This document shows positions 3,569-24,700 of a DNA stretch of 64,000 nt, piece by piece. The notes under the pieces were generated by a model, which saw only the letters and a list, made by a program, of their open reading frames with translations, ran no database searches and had not been told where the DNA came from. Origin of the DNA: an uncultured Verrucomicrobiae bacterium (GTDB taxonomy: Bacteria > Verrucomicrobiota > Verrucomicrobiia > Limisphaerales > UBA1100); NCBI GenBank assembly GCA_937775205.1, contig CALKBX010000020.1:23210-87209 (forward strand), read 5' to 3'. Made by a program: the position numbers and the translations under genes. Positions within the stretch are counted from its first letter, which is position 1; every line of letters starts with the position of its first letter.

Positions 3569-4942
3569 GTGAATGTAAAAGTTGAAATAATCGAACTGGC
3601 GCCGTGCAAGAAGCAGCTGCGCTTTGAACTACCGGCGGAAGACGTGGACGCTGCGTTTGCGAAAGTGACGAGCACGTTTCGCAAACAGGCCAATCTGCCG
3701 GGCTATCGCAAGGGCAAAGCACCGGAGGCCAAAGTGGCGGCACAGTTTGCCGACAAAATTCAGGATCAAGTGCGCGAGCAGTTGCTCAATGACTGCTATC
3801 GCAAAGGGTTGGAGGATAACAAAATCCGTCCGCTGCTGCAGCCGGAGGTGGAGGAGGTCAACTTCAAACGCGGTGAGGCGTTGAATTTTTTGGCCACGGT
3901 GGAAACCGCGCCAGATTTTGAAATGCCTGAGTACAAAGGATTGCCCGCCAAGAAACCGAAGCTGGAAGTCGCCGACGCCGACGTGGACAACGCGCTGAAC
4001 AAACTCCGCGAAGGCCGCGCGGAATACAAGGAACAGGAGCGCGGCACGCAAGCAGGCGATTATGTGGTGGTGAGCTTCACCGGCACCAGCGACGGCAAGC
4101 CGCTCACGGATTTCTCGCCCACCGCGCGCGGGATGACCAAGCAGGAAAATTTTCCGCTGCACGTGCACGCCGATGAGCACGATCATTTTATTCCCGGCTT
4201 CACCAAACAACTCATCGGCGCCAAGCCCGGCGAGGAACGCACGGTGACGGTCACCATCCCCGACGAGTTTCCCAGCCAACCGAAGTTGCAGGGGCTAAAC
4301 GTGATTTACGAAGTGAAGGTGATGCAGGTGAAAGAAAAGGTGCTGCCCGAATTGACTGATGAGTTTGCCAAAAGCTGGGAAGCGGAGAGCGTAGAAAAAT
4401 TGCGCGAAGGCGTGCGGGACGATCTGAAATCCAATCAAGAAGGCGAGGCGATGCGCGTGGTGCGCGCGCAGGTGCACGAGGAGCTAATGAAAAAAGTGAG
4501 CTTCGCCGTGCCCGAACCCGTGCAACAAAACGAGCTGCGCATCGTGGTGGAAAGCATGGTACGCACGCGCCGCGCCGGTGGAGCATCGGAGGAAGATATT
4601 GAGAAAGCCAAAGAGCAAATCACCGCCGAGGCCAACCCCATCGCCATGGATCGCGCGCGTTGGTTTTTCATACACCCTCTCATTGCCGAGACGGAAAAGG
4701 TGGAGGTCAGCCGCGAGGAAGTGCTGCGCGTCATCGCGATGCAAGCCCAGCAAATGGGCAAAGATCCCCAGCAACACGTGAAAGAACTGGCCGACAACAA
4801 TCAGATCAGCGCCATCCAAAACCAAATCCGCGAGCAAAAAGTCATCGAGCTCATCGCCGAACACGCCGAGATCGAACTGGTCGACCCACCCGAGCCGGAC
4901 CCCGCCGAGCACGATCACGACCATGGTCACTCACACGGATGA
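3569..4942 (+). CDS. tig: Trigger factor (peptidyl-prolyl isomerase/chaperone) with His-rich C-terminus
   Basis: GTG start giving VNVKVEIIELAPCKKQLRFELPAEDVDAAF; FRKQANLPGYRKGKAP ribosome-binding region; ends AEHDHDHGHSHG. Confidence 0.93.
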   Translation: MNVKVEIIELAPCKKQLRFELPAEDVDAAFAKVTSTFRKQANLPGYRKGKAPEAKVAAQFADKIQDQVREQLLNDCYRKGLEDNKIRPLLQPEVEEVNFKRGEALNFLATVETAPDFEMPEYKGLPAKKPKLEVADADVDNALNKLREGRAEYKEQERGTQAGDYVVVSFTGTSDGKPLTDFSPTARGMTKQENFPLHVHADEHDHFIPGFTKQLIGAKPGEERTVTVTIPDEFPSQPKLQGLNVIYEVKVMQVKEKVLPELTDEFAKSWEAESVEKLREGVRDDLKSNQEGEAMRVVRAQVHEELMKKVSFAVPEPVQQNELRIVVESMVRTRRAGGASEEDIEKAKEQITAEANPIAMDRARWFFIHPLIAETEKVEVSREEVLRVIAMQAQQMGKDPQQHVKELADNNQISAIQNQIREQKVIELIAEHAEIELVDPPEPDPAEHDHDHGHSHG

Positions 4943-5001
4943 CACAGGAAATTTCAGAATCGTGCATTGACGCCCACGCGCAACCCCCTATCCTTTTGCC
5001 T

Positions 5002-5729
5002 ATGAAACCCACACTACTGCACGCCCTATTTCCTACGTTACTGTTGAGCTTGCTGCTCAGCGCGGGCTGTAAAAAAGACAAAGAAGCCGACGCTGAAGAA
5101 GACGATGGCAAACAATCCACCGCCTCCGAAGGCGGTGGTGATCCCGGCGGCGGTGGTGGGACCGGAGGAATGGGACCGGGTGGTGGTGGTCCTGGAGGAA
5201 TGGGACCGGGTGGTGGTGGTCCTGGAGGAATGGAACCGGGTGGTGGTGGTCCTGGAGGAATGGGACCGGGTGGAGGCCAACAACCTGTGAGGCTCGACCC
5301 CAATCAACCTCAGGCTCCGCAAATGATTTGGACTGTGAACACCGGTCGCCGCCAATCTCCAGGCTTGGATATTCGCACAATCTATTTGGGTAAACCCGCC
5401 AGCACAATTCAGCAGGCTTTTGGAAGCCCGACGGATGCAAAGTTGGTGGGTACCAACGGAGTATGGACTTATCCCGGAATGAAAATTCGTGACGCCCAAG
5501 GAAAGACCTACAATGCCGTAAGATTTACCATCCAACCCGTCCCCAACGGCGGCGGAAAAGTAATCGCGATTGATGTAATCCCCGGCGCAATTGCCGGAGC
5601 TGTGGGGGGCGGTGGCCCCGGCGGCGGTGGCCCTGTGGATTTCCGGGTGGAGGTCCGGGCGGCGGTCCGGGCGGCTGGTGGGCCGGGTGCGGCCCCGGCG
5701 AGCAAAAGGGTGGACCGAGCGCACCATAA
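5002..5729 (+). CDS. Gly-rich lipoprotein with decapeptide repeats; probable -1 nt frameshift near 5635
   Basis: MKPTLLHALFPTLLLSLLLSAGCKKDK lipobox. GMGPGGGGPG repeats. The annotated frame runs on through a terminator to 5880; adding one G at ~5635 restores GGFPGGGPGGGPGGWW...PSAP* ending at 5727-5729, just before the terminator. Confidence 0.6.
5160..5275 (+). repeat. In-frame 30-bp minisatellite (unit ggaatgggaccgggtggtggtggtcctgga), about 3.7 copies
   Basis: Tandem near-identical units encoding GMGPGGGGPG; one copy has gaacc instead of ggacc (GMEPGGGGPG). Confidence 0.9.
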
Positions 5730-6905: not shown

Positions 6906-7614
6906 CCACCCAGCGACCAGCGATTTCTAGCCCGGCGATGGGCTCGCCGACCGTGAGCATCGCGGTCAACGCATCGGTTAACTCATACTCACCGCGAGGC
7001 GATTTTTCCAAACGCGCCGTGTGTTGGAAAAGCATCGGCCGGAAAATATAAATCCCCGCATTGTACCAAGCCGTCTCGCTATCCTTCAAAAAATTTTCCG
7101 ACCGCAATTCGTCCAGTTGCGCTTCCGAAGGTTTCTCCACCAAATGATTCAAACAAAACGCCTCATCAAAAAAGAATAACCCGCCCTTCGTCACATCCTC
7201 GCTGCCCGTCACCGTCACCAAGCCCGAAAATTCGCCCTTGCCCCAACGCTCGAGCATTTTCTGATACGTCTCCGGCTTCACCAAAATATCGCCATACGTC
7301 AGCAAAAACGCATCGTCGCCCACAAAGTCTCTCGCCAACTCCGGCGCTTTCCCCGTCCCATCCTGCACGGTCTGCCGCGCATAAGAAATGCTAACCCCAA
7401 ATTCCGCCCCATCGCCAAAGTGCGATTCGATTACCTCTGCCTTCCAACCGGTGATAACACAAAACTCAATCACCCCCGCTTCGCGCAGGCCGGTAACGAT
7501 GTGCTCCAAAATCGGCCGCCCCTCCACTGGCAGCATCGGTTTCGGCACCTCGTCCGTGAGCCCGCCCATGCGAGTACCTTTGCCAGCGGCTAAGATGACG
7601 GCTTTCATCGCCAA
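6856..7614 (-). CDS. Sugar-nucleotide nucleotidyltransferase (NTP_transferase family)
   Basis: MKAVILAAGKGTRMGGLTDEVPKPMLPVEGRPILEHIV signature. Confidence 0.88.
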   Translation of the reverse strand: MAMKAVILAAGKGTRMGGLTDEVPKPMLPVEGRPILEHIVTGLREAGVIEFCVITGWKAEVIESHFGDGAEFGVSISYARQTVQDGTGKAPELARDFVGDDAFLLTYGDILVKPETYQKMLERWGKGEFSGLVTVTGSEDVTKGGLFFFDEAFCLNHLVEKPSEAQLDELRSENFLKDSETAWYNAGIYIFRPMLFQHTARLEKSPRGEYELTDALTAMLTVGEPIAGLEIAGRWVDVRDPEVLRALQDPAE

Positions 7615-8361
7615 TTACTTCGCCTTTCCTTGACTCGCCACTGCGTCCATCGCGGCCTTCACAGCTTCCTCGTCGCCGAGGTAATAGTTTTTAATCGGTT
7701 TCAAATCTTCGTCCAGTTCGTACACGAGCGGCATTCCGGTGGGGATGTTGAGTTTCAAAATGGCTTCGTCGGAAACGTCATCGAGATATTTCACCAACGC
7801 TCGGAGGCTGTTGCCGTGGGCGGCGATGATGACGCGTTTGCCGGCCTTGATTTCTGGCGCAATGGTTTCGTGCCAATATGGGAGGAAGCGGTCGACCGTG
7901 TCCGCAAGGCATTCGGTGAGCGGCTGCTGGGCCTCGGTGAGATTGGCGTAGCGCGCGTCGTTGCCGGGCCAGCGCGCGTCACTTTTTTCTAACGCGGGCG
8001 GCGGAACATCGTAGGCGCGCCGCCAAATGAGTACTTGTTCTTCGCCGTGCTTCTCGGCGGTCTCGGATTTATTGAGGCCCTGCAACGCGCCGTAGTGGCG
8101 TTCGTTCAGCCGCCAATCGCGCCGCACGGGGAGCCACATTTGGTCCAGCTCATCCAGCGCAATCCACAACGTGCGAATAGCGCGCTTGAGCAATGAAGTG
8201 TGGGCTTGGTCGAAAACGAAGCCGTTTTCCTTGAGCACACGACCCGCCGCCTTGGCCTCTTCGCGGCCTTGATCGGTGAGATCCACATCGTGCCAACCGG
8301 TGAATCGATTGTCCAAATTCCATTGTGACTGTCCGTGACGCAGTAAAACTAATTTATGCAT
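7615..8361 (-). CDS. gpmA: 2,3-bisphosphoglycerate-dependent phosphoglycerate mutase
   Basis: [66 protein letters not shown]. Confidence 0.96.
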
Positions 8362-19439: not shown

Positions 19440-19937
19440 TCAAGAGCCGGAATCGAGCGGAAGGCGATCGGCATCCGAAGCGGCATCGGGCGTGTACAGG
19501 CCGGGGCCGATGTTTTCCAAATGATCGGTGCCGTCGAATTCGCGTTTCCATTTCACGCCATAAAAAACGCCGGCTGCAATCGCCACAAACGCAAACACCG
19601 GCAGCACCAGCCGCCAGTTCACACGCGAGAAAGCGAGCATAATGGCGTCGAGAATCCCGGCGCGCAGGGCGGCATTGCCGCCATCGGGCTGGACTCCCGA
19701 TGCCTGGCCCATCTCGACATTTAGTTGTTCAAGCAGCGCCTCCGTGTCCAGCTTCAGCATATTCGCGTAGCTGCGCACAAAGCCGCGCACATACGCCGGC
19801 GCGGCAAATTCCTCAAACCGGCCGCCCTCCAGCGCCTGCACTTGGTCGGTCTTGAGCTGGGTCGTTTCCACCACCTCCGCCAGCGCCAAGCCTCTCGCTT
19901 CGCGGGCGTGTTTAAGTTGTTCAGCCACCGTTGCCAC
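19440..19937 (-). CDS. RodZ-like HTH plus transmembrane protein (short, no C-terminal beta domain)
   Basis: MATVAEQLKHAREARGLALAEVVETTQLKTDQVQALEGGRFEEFAAPAYVRGFVRSYANMLKLD; single TM WRLVLPVFAFVAIAAGVFYGV. Confidence 0.82.
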   Translation of the reverse strand: MATVAEQLKHAREARGLALAEVVETTQLKTDQVQALEGGRFEEFAAPAYVRGFVRSYANMLKLDTEALLEQLNVEMGQASGVQPDGGNAALRAGILDAIMLAFSRVNWRLVLPVFAFVAIAAGVFYGVKWKREFDGTDHLENIGPGLYTPDAASDADRLPLDSGS

Positions 19938-20035: not shown

Positions 20036-20857
20036 ATGCCCGCGACTTCCGGTAGGTTTTCCCGCCAAGTGAGCAAGGCAACCCTTCACGCGCTAGGCAC
20101 AGGCGATGGCTGGGCCGGCGATTCGCGCGGGCACTCGGCGTTCGTTTACCGGCTCGGCGGACGCACGCTGCTGATCGATTGCGGCGAACCGGTGAGCCGC
20201 CGTCTGCGTGCCGCCGGCATTGCGCCCGATGATCTCGATGGCATTTTGCTGACCCATCTGCACTGCGATCATATCGGCGGATTTTTCATGTTGATGCAGG
20301 GGTTTTGGCTCGAAAAACGCACGCGAGATTTGACCGTGCATATGCCCGCCGAAGGCCTCGAGCCGGTGCGCCGGATGCTGGATGCCGCCTTTATTTTCCG
20401 CGAACTGATGCCGGCCGCGCTGGACTTCGCCCCGCTCACCGCCGGTGAGCCGCTGCAAATTGGCCCCATAAAAATCACCCCGCACCCCACCACCCACCTC
20501 GAAACGTTACGTCAACATTTTCAGGAAAAATATCCGCAAGGCTTTGAAGCGTTCAGTTTTATTTTAGAAACCGGAGACACCCGCATCGCCCACAGCGGAG
20601 ACATCGGTGCCGCGACCGATCTCGAGCCGTTGCTGGAAAAGCCGCTGGATCTCTTCTGCTGCGAACTCGCCCACGTGGAGCCCGCCGAACTCTTCTCGCT
20701 GCTTGCCACCAAACAAATCGGCCACGTCTGTTTCACCCACCTCTCGCGCCAACACCGCGAAAATATCGAAGCCCTGAAAACCCAAGCCGCCGAGGCATTG
20801 GGAGAGATGGAGGTGACGTTTTTGGAAGACGATCAGTTGGTTGAGATTTCAGATTGA
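20036..20857 (+). CDS. MBL-fold metallo-hydrolase (RNase Z-like)
   Basis: HALGTGDGWAGDSRGHSAFVYRLGGRTLLIDCGEP, LLTHLHCDHIGG, AHSGDIGAATDL, CFTHLSRQHREN. Confidence 0.88.
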   Translation: MPATSGRFSRQVSKATLHALGTGDGWAGDSRGHSAFVYRLGGRTLLIDCGEPVSRRLRAAGIAPDDLDGILLTHLHCDHIGGFFMLMQGFWLEKRTRDLTVHMPAEGLEPVRRMLDAAFIFRELMPAALDFAPLTAGEPLQIGPIKITPHPTTHLETLRQHFQEKYPQGFEAFSFILETGDTRIAHSGDIGAATDLEPLLEKPLDLFCCELAHVEPAELFSLLATKQIGHVCFTHLSRQHRENIEALKTQAAEALGEMEVTFLEDDQLVEISD

Positions 20858-20934: not shown

Positions 20935-21645
20935 CTACCGGCTCGACTGCATTAGAATCAAATCCTTCTTGTGGCGTTCGTTGTCCGCGCGCATTCGGGT
21001 GGACATTTTGGCGGCGAGGGAGCTGAGGAAGGGGGTGGCGATTTCGGGTTGTTGATCTACAAGGCGCTCGAATTCCTTGGCGTCGATCTTGAGCAGCACG
21101 CCATTGCTGTTGGCCACGATGTCGGCGCTGCGTTTGCCGCGGTCGAACAGTGAAATTTCCCCGAACACTTCGCCCGCCTTCAGCGTGGCGAGCAGCGTTT
21201 CCTTGCCGCCCACCATCTTGCGCACGCGCACCACGCCTTCGAGCAGCACAAACATCGCGTCGCCCACGTCGCCTTCGTTCACGAGGATTTCGAACTTCGC
21301 AAACTTTTGCACCTCCATACTTTGCGCGAAGCGGCCGCGTTGTTGGTCGCTCATCCCCTTGAAAATTTCCACGCCCTCCAGCGTGCCCACGGGAACGCCC
21401 GGGATGAGTGGGCTATGCACGATGGTGCCGGGCTTCATCAAGCCCGCGGCTTTTTCAAAAAAGAGGCCCAGCTCCGGCAGCTCACCGGCGCGCGCCCATT
21501 GCTCGGTGTCCTCGAGATAAAGCCAAATGGCATCAGTCACGCGCGCCTCGCGAATCCATTGAGTGAGCGTGGGGAAATCGATGGGGCCGTAAACCACGTC
21601 ATCCGCAGCCCACACCTTATAAGTTCGATTCGTCGCCATCGCCAT
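20935..21645 (-). CDS. GYF_2-like domain plus cyclic nucleotide-binding (CNB) domain protein, no HTH
   Basis: YKVWAADDVVYGPIDFPTLTQWIREARV (GYF_2-like); CNB phosphate-binding cassette FGEISLFDRGKRSADIVA; C-terminus helical with no winged helix. Confidence 0.88.
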   Translation of the reverse strand: MAMATNRTYKVWAADDVVYGPIDFPTLTQWIREARVTDAIWLYLEDTEQWARAGELPELGLFFEKAAGLMKPGTIVHSPLIPGVPVGTLEGVEIFKGMSDQQRGRFAQSMEVQKFAKFEILVNEGDVGDAMFVLLEGVVRVRKMVGGKETLLATLKAGEVFGEISLFDRGKRSADIVANSNGVLLKIDAKEFERLVDQQPEIATPFLSSLAAKMSTRMRADNERHKKDLILMQSSR

Positions 21646-21659
21646 CGCGGGCAAGTTAC

Positions 21660-21796
21660 GCCGAGGAGGGTTGAATGGAAAGGGGATTTTGAAGGCCCAA
21701 AGTCCAATGACCAAATCCCAAGAGAGTGCGAAAGTGGGTTATTGGAATTTGGGTATTCCTTGGGCCTTGGGTTTTGGGGCTTGGGCATTCCCGCCC
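21660..21796. repeat. Decayed palindromic repeat (aggcccaaagtccaatgaccaaatcccaa ... ttgggccttgggttttggggcttggg)
   Basis: Imperfect inverted arms of CCCAA/TTGGG type; spacer between the ftsK and CNB genes. Confidence 0.5.
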
Positions 21797-24700
21797 TTAA
21801 ACCAATTCCGCCACGCCTTGCCCGCGTCCATCGGCGCCGCCTCCGTCGAGGTCGATGAGAATCTCGCGGGGCTCGTGGCCTTGGGCGGGGCCTACGATTC
21901 CGCGGTCTTCTAGCTCGTCCATAATGCGGGCGGCGCGGGTGTAGCCGAGACGTAGGCGACGTTGCAGTTTGGAGACGCTGGCTTTTTGTTCGCTGCGGAT
22001 CACCTCGATGCATTGCTGGATGAGATCTTCATCCTCACCGCTGACGGCCGAGCCAGCCAAAGCGGGTTTGGAAAGTTGCTGGGTGATGTCCACCTCGAAC
22101 TTCGGTTTGCCTTGGCCGGTGATGAAGCTGACGATTTGTTGCACCTCTTCGTCGGTGACGAGCGGGCCTTGCGCGCGAGTGGGTTTGGGCGCGCCGGGCG
22201 GTTGATAAAGCATGTCGCCTTTGCCTAAAAGTTTCTCCGCGCCCATCTCATCGAGGATGACGCGGCTGTCGATTTTCGAGGCCACCTGAAACGCAATGCG
22301 GCTCGGAATGTTGGCTTTGATGACGCCGGTGATGACTTTCACGCTGGGGCGCTGGGTGGCCACGATGCAGTGGATGCCGGCGGCGCGAGCCATTTGGGTG
22401 ATGCGGGCGATGGCGTTTTCCACCTCGGCGGGCGCGGTGAGCATGAGATCGGCCAGCTCGTCGATGACCACCACGATGTAACTGAGGCGATCTGGGATCT
22501 CGATTTCTTCGTCGCGGGGCACGACGATTTCTTCATCGATTTCCACGGCGAATCCTTCGGAGCTTCCGCGCTCGCCATCAAAGAGAGTCATCTGCGGCTC
22601 CGGCTCGGCGGGCGGTTTGTCGCGGCGGCGTTTGTTGAAGGATTGGATGTTCTTCACGTTCTCCTTTGCAAAAATCTTGTAGCGCTTTTCCATTTCCGAA
22701 ACCACCCAGCGCAAAGCGAGAATGACTTTTTTGGGATCGGTGACCACCGGCATCGCGAGGTGCGGCAGGGTGTTGTACATTTGCAGCTCCACCACTTTGG
22801 GATCGATCATCACCAGCCGTAATTCGTCCGGCGAAAACTTGTAAAGTAACGAGGTGACGATGCCGTTCATACACACGCTCTTGCCCGCGCCGGTGGCGCC
22901 GGCGATGAGCAAATGCGGCATCTCGGCGAGATCGGCCACGATAGGTTTGCCGTACACATCCTTGCCCAACGCCACGGGCACTTTGGCTTTGCTTTTCTTC
23001 CACTCATCACTCTCGAGCAAATCGCGCATAATGACTTTCGTCTTGATGCGGTTGGGCACCTCAACACCCACGGTGCTCTTGCCGGGCACGGGGGCGAGAA
23101 TGTTGATACGTTCCGCCTTCAATGCGGCAGTGACATTGTTGGTGTAGGTGGTGATTTTCTCCATCTTCACGCCCGGCGCGGGATGGAACTCAAAGCGGGT
23201 GATGGTTGGCCCTTTCGTGATGTCGCCCAACGCGACTTCTACGCCGAATTGCTTGAGCGTTTGCTGGATGGTAATGGCGGCGGCTTTGAGTTCGTCGGTG
23301 GAGTCGACGGCGGTGGCAATAAATTCGGGCGCCTGGAGAAATTCGACCGGCGGCAGTTTGTAATTCTCAATCAGCGGGCCGCGCGCCACAGCGGTGGGCT
23401 TGGGCCGTTTGAGTTGCTTGGGCCTGACGGGGCCGGTGCTGGAAATGGCGGGGGCGATGTGCACCGTAGGCTCGGTGTCGTCCTTCGAGTCACCGAGAAT
23501 ATCTTTCGTAGTGGCTGCGCCGTGGTCGGCTTTTTCTGTCAATGCCACCTCGGGATTTGCGGTGAGGTCTTCGTCCTCGAAAACTGTTTCGGGCAAAGCC
23601 GCCACGGCAACGGCCACGGTGTAAATTTCTGCTTTTTGGCTGAGGCCTTCCAACACAAATTCTCCCAACAACCGCACTTCGTACTGAGGTTGGCTGATGA
23701 GATCCTGCTGGATTTTTCCTGAAACCGCCACGCCGCCGACCGGCGCGTATTCCTCAATGCGCGAGGCGATGTTCACGCCGTCGCCGAGAATGTCATTGCC
23801 TTCGCGGACGACGTCGCCCTGATGAATGCCGATGCGCAGTTCAAGATGCTCCTCGCCGAGCACTTTCGCCTGAATGGCCAGCGCGCACTCAACCGCGCTG
23901 AGCGAGCTGTCGAAACTCAAAAGTAAACCATCGCCGATTTCCTTGAGCCATTCGCCTTCAAATTGTTTGACCAATGGCTTGAGCAGGCGGCGTTGTTTTT
24001 TAAGGAGCTTCAGCGCCGCTTTTTCATCGCGATTGGCGAGGGCGGAATAATCCACGATATCCGTGAACACAATCGCCGCCAACTTGCGGCGCGGTTCCGG
24101 GGCGGCATCCTCATCATCGACGGCCACCTTGGGGCGCGCTTGCGGTTGGCTGAGGTCGATGATGTTTGGCTCTTCGTTAGTGACGCCAATGGGCATCGCT
24201 TGGGCGGCGTTGGCCAATTCTTTTTGCAAATCCGCCACGCGCTGTTGCAGTTCAGCTTCGCGTTGGTTCAGCTCGATCTCTTCGTTGGCCAGCGGCTGCG
24301 AGCGATCCACCTTGGGCAGCTTCCATTTTGTCCACGCGGCTTTGGCCCATTCTTTGAGTTGAAAATTAGTGAGATAAAGCAGGCTCACCAAATACACCGC
24401 CAGCAATAACACCGTGGCGCCCGCCGTGCCCACGTGTTGGAAAATGCCTTTGTGCAACAGCATGCCCACATAGCCGCCGGCGTCCACTGTGTTCAGGCTT
24501 TTCGCCAGTCCGCCAAAGAGGCCGGGATATAAACTCAACCCCGCCGACCCCGCCAGCACCAGCGCCGCCGCCCACGGCCAGCGCTTGCGCAAGCCGTCGA
24601 GTTTATCGGTGAAAAATGCGATGGCGAAAATCAGTGTCAACGGCGGCAACAAATACGCCGACGCGCCCAGCGCCATAAAGCACCCCTGAGCCAGCCACGC

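Follow-up and report, generated by a model that had tools for sequence, protein, structure and literature searches.

Does the gene beside the cyclase-bearing ftsK of this locus encode a receptor for the cyclic nucleotide that this FtsK would make? The window, by which we mean the whole stretch of 64,000 nucleotides analysed here, comes from an uncultured Verrucomicrobiae bacterium. In it an ftsK with a class III cyclase domain is followed on the same strand by a gene for a protein with an N-terminal GYF_2-like domain and a cyclic nucleotide-binding (CNB) domain, which we call GYF-CNB. An earlier note on this DNA had taken the two for the synthase and the receptor of one second messenger, with a receptor made to interact with proteins and not to act in transcription. 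What it said of the gene next downstream of ftsK agrees with the coordinates, the length of the product and the Pfam assignments given below.

The CNB protein and the fused FtsK

Table 1. Features of the locus and related gene pairs
Feature	Coordinates	Strand	Basis
RodZ-like HTH_25 protein	19440..19937	-	PF13413
MBL-fold hydrolase, convergent, adjoining the CNB gene; possible phosphodiesterase	20036..20857	+	Synteny, metal ligands, fold
GYF-CNB gene, candidate cyclic-nucleotide receptor	20935..21645	-	ORF (ATG at 21645, stop at 20935; 236 aa), Pfam, homologues, AF2 model
Long C-terminal helix, C-helix-like, residues 200-235	20941..21048	-	AF2 secondary structure
CNB domain, residues 113-198	21052..21309	-	PF00027; PDB matches by sequence and fold
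Phosphate-binding cassette FGEISLFDRGKRSADIVAN, residues 161-179; E163, R172, S173	21109..21165	-	Alignments
GYF_2-like N-terminal domain, residues 15-59	21469..21603	-	PF14237, order-wide homologues
Intergenic spacer with CCCAA-rich repeat	21646..21796	-	151 bp; about 55 bp without the repeat
ftsK, cyclase-bearing, 1029 aa	21797..24886	-	Pfam
Class III cyclase domain	23615..24079	-	Family conservation; aligned to 3mr7
Second cyclase-CNB pairings in the lineage	L135:5526-7268(-) + 7268-7768(+); L221:5742-7433(+) + 4924-5622(-)		G159, G125

By its sequence GYF-CNB is a member of PF00027 (E=2.7e-22; 79 bits against a curated cut-off of 27.5) with an intact phosphate-binding cassette, and its CNB domain resembles those of PKA, PKG, CRP and GlxR in the PDB in both sequence and fold. 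The cassette, FGEISLFDRGKRSAD, aligns with GELGLFEEGQERSA of E. coli CRP (GE...RS). Its GE..LFD...RSAD positions, with GE and RSAD entire, are unchanged in 19/19 family members, and the Glu and Arg that the earlier note had seen as retained for binding a cyclic phosphate (E163 and R172, for the ribose and the cyclic phosphate) are thereby invariant. Across the order the consensus is FG[ED]..LFD.GPRSADV, with Asp in place of Glu in a few relatives (families f26, f48 and f30). For the N-terminal domain, PF14237 (GYF_2) gives 19.2 bits on the window protein alone, against a curated cut-off of 25.8; the same model is matched at E<=0.01 by 22 of 30 order-wide homologues, the best at E=3.8e-6, and D15, Y19-G20-P21, W30, R35, W41 and W50 are invariant across the 30. 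An alternative TTG start would extend the frame to 21714; the homologues begin near the ATG instead.

An AF2 model of GYF-CNB built with 8 sequences (mean pLDDT 75.7) has a small domain at the N-terminus, then a CNB beta-roll and lastly a long helix, with which the chain ends. No helix-turn-helix (HTH) is seen in the model or among the Pfam matches, which comprise two domains only, in agreement with the note, and the lack of a C-terminal HTH rules out a transcription factor of the CRP/FNR type. The best Foldseek matches cover only the ligand-binding half of CRP and GlxR, together with the CNB domains of PKA and PKG, and several of the GlxR/CRP matches are cAMP-bound structures. The C-terminal helix has a conserved R.RADN.R in the order-wide homologues. 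Its base-contact pair is Asp-Asn (D221, N222) in place of the Thr-Ser of CRP, so the base specificity of GYF-CNB is uncertain.

The cyclase domain reported for the upstream FtsK is real. PF00211 (Guanylate_cyc) matches residues 270-424 with E=6.3e-13 and the remainder of the protein is complete, with FtsK_4TM at 16-181, the alpha domain at 511-612, the motor at 621-849 and the gamma domain at 951-1011. When aligned with plain FtsKs, the cyclase is a clean in-frame insertion directly after a conserved linker motif, and the fused protein is the sole FtsK detected in the genome. The six catalytic residues to be expected of an adenylate-type cyclase, whose roles we take to be those established for class III cyclases, are all conserved across the family copies: D276 and D319 for metal, K315 and D365 for the purine, and N372 and R376 for the transition state. 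Retention of the purine-type Lys and Asp speaks against a pyrimidine cyclase. The cyclase and CNB domains are both intact and under purifying selection, pairwise dN/dS, where calculable, being 0.03-0.11 for the cyclase domain and 0.07-0.18 for the receptor, with several pairs saturated at synonymous sites.

Distribution and origin of the gene pair

The window's marine Verrucomicrobiota family was sampled with 20 genomes. The fusion, the adjacent CNB gene and an MBL gene are all present in 19, from 5 genera; the twentieth genome, which is 50% complete, lacks all three. The CNB gene lies directly after the fused ftsK on a single contig in 16 of the 19, and in the other three (G125, G153 and G158) ftsK is broken by a contig boundary: its 3' end adjoins the CNB gene, and the cyclase lies on the second fragment. 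The earlier note had named in advance, as one finding that would refute the pairing, a CNB gene standing consistently beside plain FtsKs as well. Against 19/19 inside the family, such adjacency was found in 0 of the 92 genomes outside it in which both genes were located; the two lie on different contigs in 90 of these and on one contig in two, 79 kb and 2.9 Mb apart. No FtsK-cyclase fusion outside the family was found in a class-level search of 385 genomes. Among the best 80 loci related to the FtsK-borne cyclase in a collection of 85,462 species, an FtsK motor stands in the same frame in only 7, all of them Verrucomicrobiota MAGs, and the CNB gene comes next in 7/7. In the genomes compared, the ftsK-CNB linkage is confined to the lineage with the cyclase fusion. 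Neither the fusion nor the GYF-CNB protein was found described in the open literature searched.

The gap of about 150 bp with a repeat that the note had seen between the two genes is 151 bp long here, and the note had regarded co-transcription as uncertain on its account. Within the window's genus three genomes have gaps of 151-173 bp, all with the CCCAA-rich repeat (3/7 genomes of the genus), and related genomes are without it; in the other 16 of the 19 the ftsK stop and the CNB ATG are 40-91 bp apart on the same strand. The doubt is largely removed by these short gaps, no minus-strand terminator-like site was found in the gap, and co-transcription of ftsK and the CNB gene is, as far as the sequences tell, likely. 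The repeat recurs at other loci of the genus.

On its other side the CNB gene is flanked by the convergent MBL gene in 19/19 family genomes, while in other families the MBL gene is located elsewhere. The metal ligands H74, H76, D78, H79, H154, D189 and H235 are invariant and include an HxHxDH site. A fold search places the protein near arylsulfatase, YhfI, RNase Z and Apyc1; PF23023, the Apyc1 model, scores 35.4 bits, below its cut-off of 50. YhfI and Apyc1 cleave cNMPs, with YhfI preferring cAMP/cGMP (PMC9117128), and the position of the catalytic Glu74 of Apyc1 (PMC9117128), matched by hand, is that of an invariant Phe84 in the MBL protein. The adjacency is solid and the identity of the protein lies among phosphodiesterases, RNase Z-like enzymes and other hydrolases; that it acts as a phosphodiesterase we consider improbable. 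One copy of the gene (G155:C176:65627-66427) has an in-frame TAG and is either a pseudogene or an assembly error. A genome of family f27 (G078) has, within about 6 kb of a plain FtsK and on the same strand, a homologue of the MBL gene and a receiver-like cyclase gene (L140:3680-11272).

Homologues of GYF-CNB occur in 122 of 146 genomes of the order at E<=1e-10, weaker CNB-only matches included, and in 100 by a strict count. In other families the gene is usually far from any FtsK, and the outgroup CNB neighbourhoods that were read contained no cyclase adjoining the receptor, only argS and unrelated genes. The receptor family is order-wide and predates the fusion; with its usual distance from FtsK, it would therefore have been recruited, not created, for the FtsK-borne cyclase. 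The note's idea of a receptor for protein interaction fits the domains of GYF-CNB; its interpretation as a whole is partly supported.

In the CNB tree the window's family is monophyletic (99/96), and f8 is its sister family (97/88). In the f8 genome G007 the genes after a plain FtsK are a 76-aa ORF, RodZ, RimO, PgsA and PgpA; the CNB gene lies on a different contig. Since the sister family has this plain FtsK-RodZ order and a separate CNB gene, the fusion and the adjacency fall on one branch. On that branch, to judge from the sequences compared, the cyclase was inserted into the linker of FtsK, and the CNB and MBL genes took up their position between ftsK and rodZ. The RodZ-like gene is likely the ancestral neighbour of ftsK; the FtsK-RodZ order is found in families f8 and f11 (G007, G010), and RodZ is near FtsK in f25. 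The fusion and the linkage have a single origin each, which makes their coincidence one event. With so few events it carries no strong statistical weight; by a crude estimate about 1 in 62 families would match by chance.

Possible functions of the pair

We favor, with a probability of about 0.58, the explanation that GYF-CNB is a cNMP receptor that does not act through transcription and was recruited to operate with the cyclase in FtsK. The fused FtsK and the adjoining receptor suggest a signal, not described before, that would be connected with the segregation of chromosomes and with division. The receptor gene would be transcribed after, and probably with, that of an FtsK that carries a putative adenylate cyclase between its membrane and motor parts. 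GYF-CNB itself would be a cytosolic receptor whose GYF_2-like domain probably binds a protein partner and whose C-terminal helix probably dimerises. Since FtsK forms hexamers and class III cyclases act as dimers, a cyclase activity that depends on assembly would be natural. In such a scheme, assembly of the FtsK hexamer at the septum would pair the cyclase domains as dimers that make cAMP or a related cNMP, binding of this nucleotide through the GYF-CNB cassette would alter the GYF partner, and the altered partner might report or adjust the state of division or of chromosome translocation. Here we infer the enzyme activity, the ligand, the specificity of the pair, the partner and the place of action. 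A more ambitious version, which we regard as tentative and on balance unlikely, would have FtsK act as both sensor and synthase of a second messenger. Its cyclase would be activated at the septum as the translocase assembles or engages DNA, a dedicated non-transcriptional GYF-CNB would feed back on the divisome and the MBL protein would clear the signal, the whole being a cyclic-nucleotide checkpoint between segregation and division.

The main rival explanation is that GYF-CNB senses a cell-wide cNMP pool from any cyclase, and that its gene came to lie beside ftsK through a single rearrangement that local synteny has since preserved. Such a general role would suit an order-wide protein whose gene elsewhere stands beside argS and many other genes, and RodZ and other ftsK neighbours are largely retained within the family as well. 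It would also suit the second cyclase found in nearly all family genomes, which, with another CNB protein in many of them, qualifies the note's pairing of the synthase with the receptor of one second messenger even as the adjacency itself stands in 19/19. Two class III cyclases and two CNB proteins are encoded in the window genome; apart from GYF-CNB, the only CNB protein is a mechanosensitive channel of the MscS type that carries its CNB domain at the C-terminus (L225:4944-6452(+), contig C23). In G024, G104 and G150, which are 90-95% complete and have two cyclases each, GYF-CNB is the only PF00027 protein found, so that any cNMP signalling through CNB domains there would need it. Against a general receptor stands a linkage that is seen in the single fusion lineage and, among the genomes compared, with no plain FtsK. 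In neighbourhoods with genes called by codon usage, moreover, the FtsK-CNB-MBL block outlasts other neighbours, persisting despite loss of BrkB, NadD or RimO (for example in G104 and G159). We consider a general receptor possible but rather unlikely.

The CNB domain could instead bind another ligand, or none, and serve in structure or in contacts between proteins. For some bacterial CNB proteins no cNMP ligand is known, the base-contact residues here are unlike those of CRP, and three genomes (G004, G032 and G096) carry the GYF-CNB gene with no PF00211 match. However, GE..RS of the cassette is invariant in the family, the fold matches cAMP-bound GlxR/CRP, and the gene co-occurs with cyclases, being present in 97 of 133 order genomes with a class III cyclase versus 3 of 13 without (Fisher p=6e-4, uncorrected for relatedness), which together make this explanation distinctly improbable. 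A cyclase gene adjacent to a CNB gene also recalls the Pycsar antiphage systems, and in PADLOC the CNB part does match PycTIR (3.5e-17) and the cyclase, weakly, PycC. But the cyclase is part of the only FtsK detected in the genome and is conserved vertically across the family, unlike patchy defence islands. A defence role is highly improbable, and membership in Pycsar was rejected for lack of a TIR or transmembrane killing domain, Pfam and PADLOC showing only GYF_2 and CNB.

Most of what is known of bacterial cAMP concerns transcription factors. Here a cyclase lies inside a division and segregation motor. As a putative non-transcriptional receptor adjoins it in 19/19 recovered regions, the proposed link between translocation, division and a second messenger is directly testable.

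Comparison with known systems

The CRP and GlxR cAMP receptors share with GYF-CNB the CNB fold, the GE...RS cassette and the long C-helix; GYF-CNB differs from them in having no HTH, an extra N-terminal GYF_2-like domain and Asp-Asn for Thr-Ser. The regulatory CNB domains of PKA and PKG are likewise non-transcriptional and are among the best PDB sequence matches, but GYF-CNB has a single CNB with a GYF domain and neither a kinase nor an inhibitory sequence. With the phosphodiesterases YhfI and Apyc1 the MBL protein has in common the MBL fold, HxHxDH and similarity of sequence and fold, at about 20% identity, with RNase Z and arylsulfatase equally close and Phe84 where Apyc1 has Glu74.

The FtsK-borne cyclase belongs to the same subfamily as class III adenylate cyclases with an N-terminal catalytic domain (TPR, WD40 and kinase/FHA fusions), and is 49-58% identical to other cyclases of these genomes and of Neomarinimicrobiota. 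Cyclases of this subfamily also occur in the window's family as N-terminal fusions to kinase-WD40 and TPR proteins (L136:5150-7876(+), L230:4212-6503(-)), and the cyclase thus behaves as a mobile module there. In G159 and G125, related cyclases (cyclase-WD40 and cyclase-kinase-FHA) are divergent beside a small CNB gene. In contrast to these N-terminal arrangements, the cyclase of the window is inserted in the linker of a DNA translocase. Pycsar, finally, resembles the ftsK-CNB pair in that the gene for its cyclase, PycC, lies beside that of a CNB effector; here there is no TIR or transmembrane effector, and the cyclase is fused to FtsK, as part of a vertically inherited core gene found family-wide.
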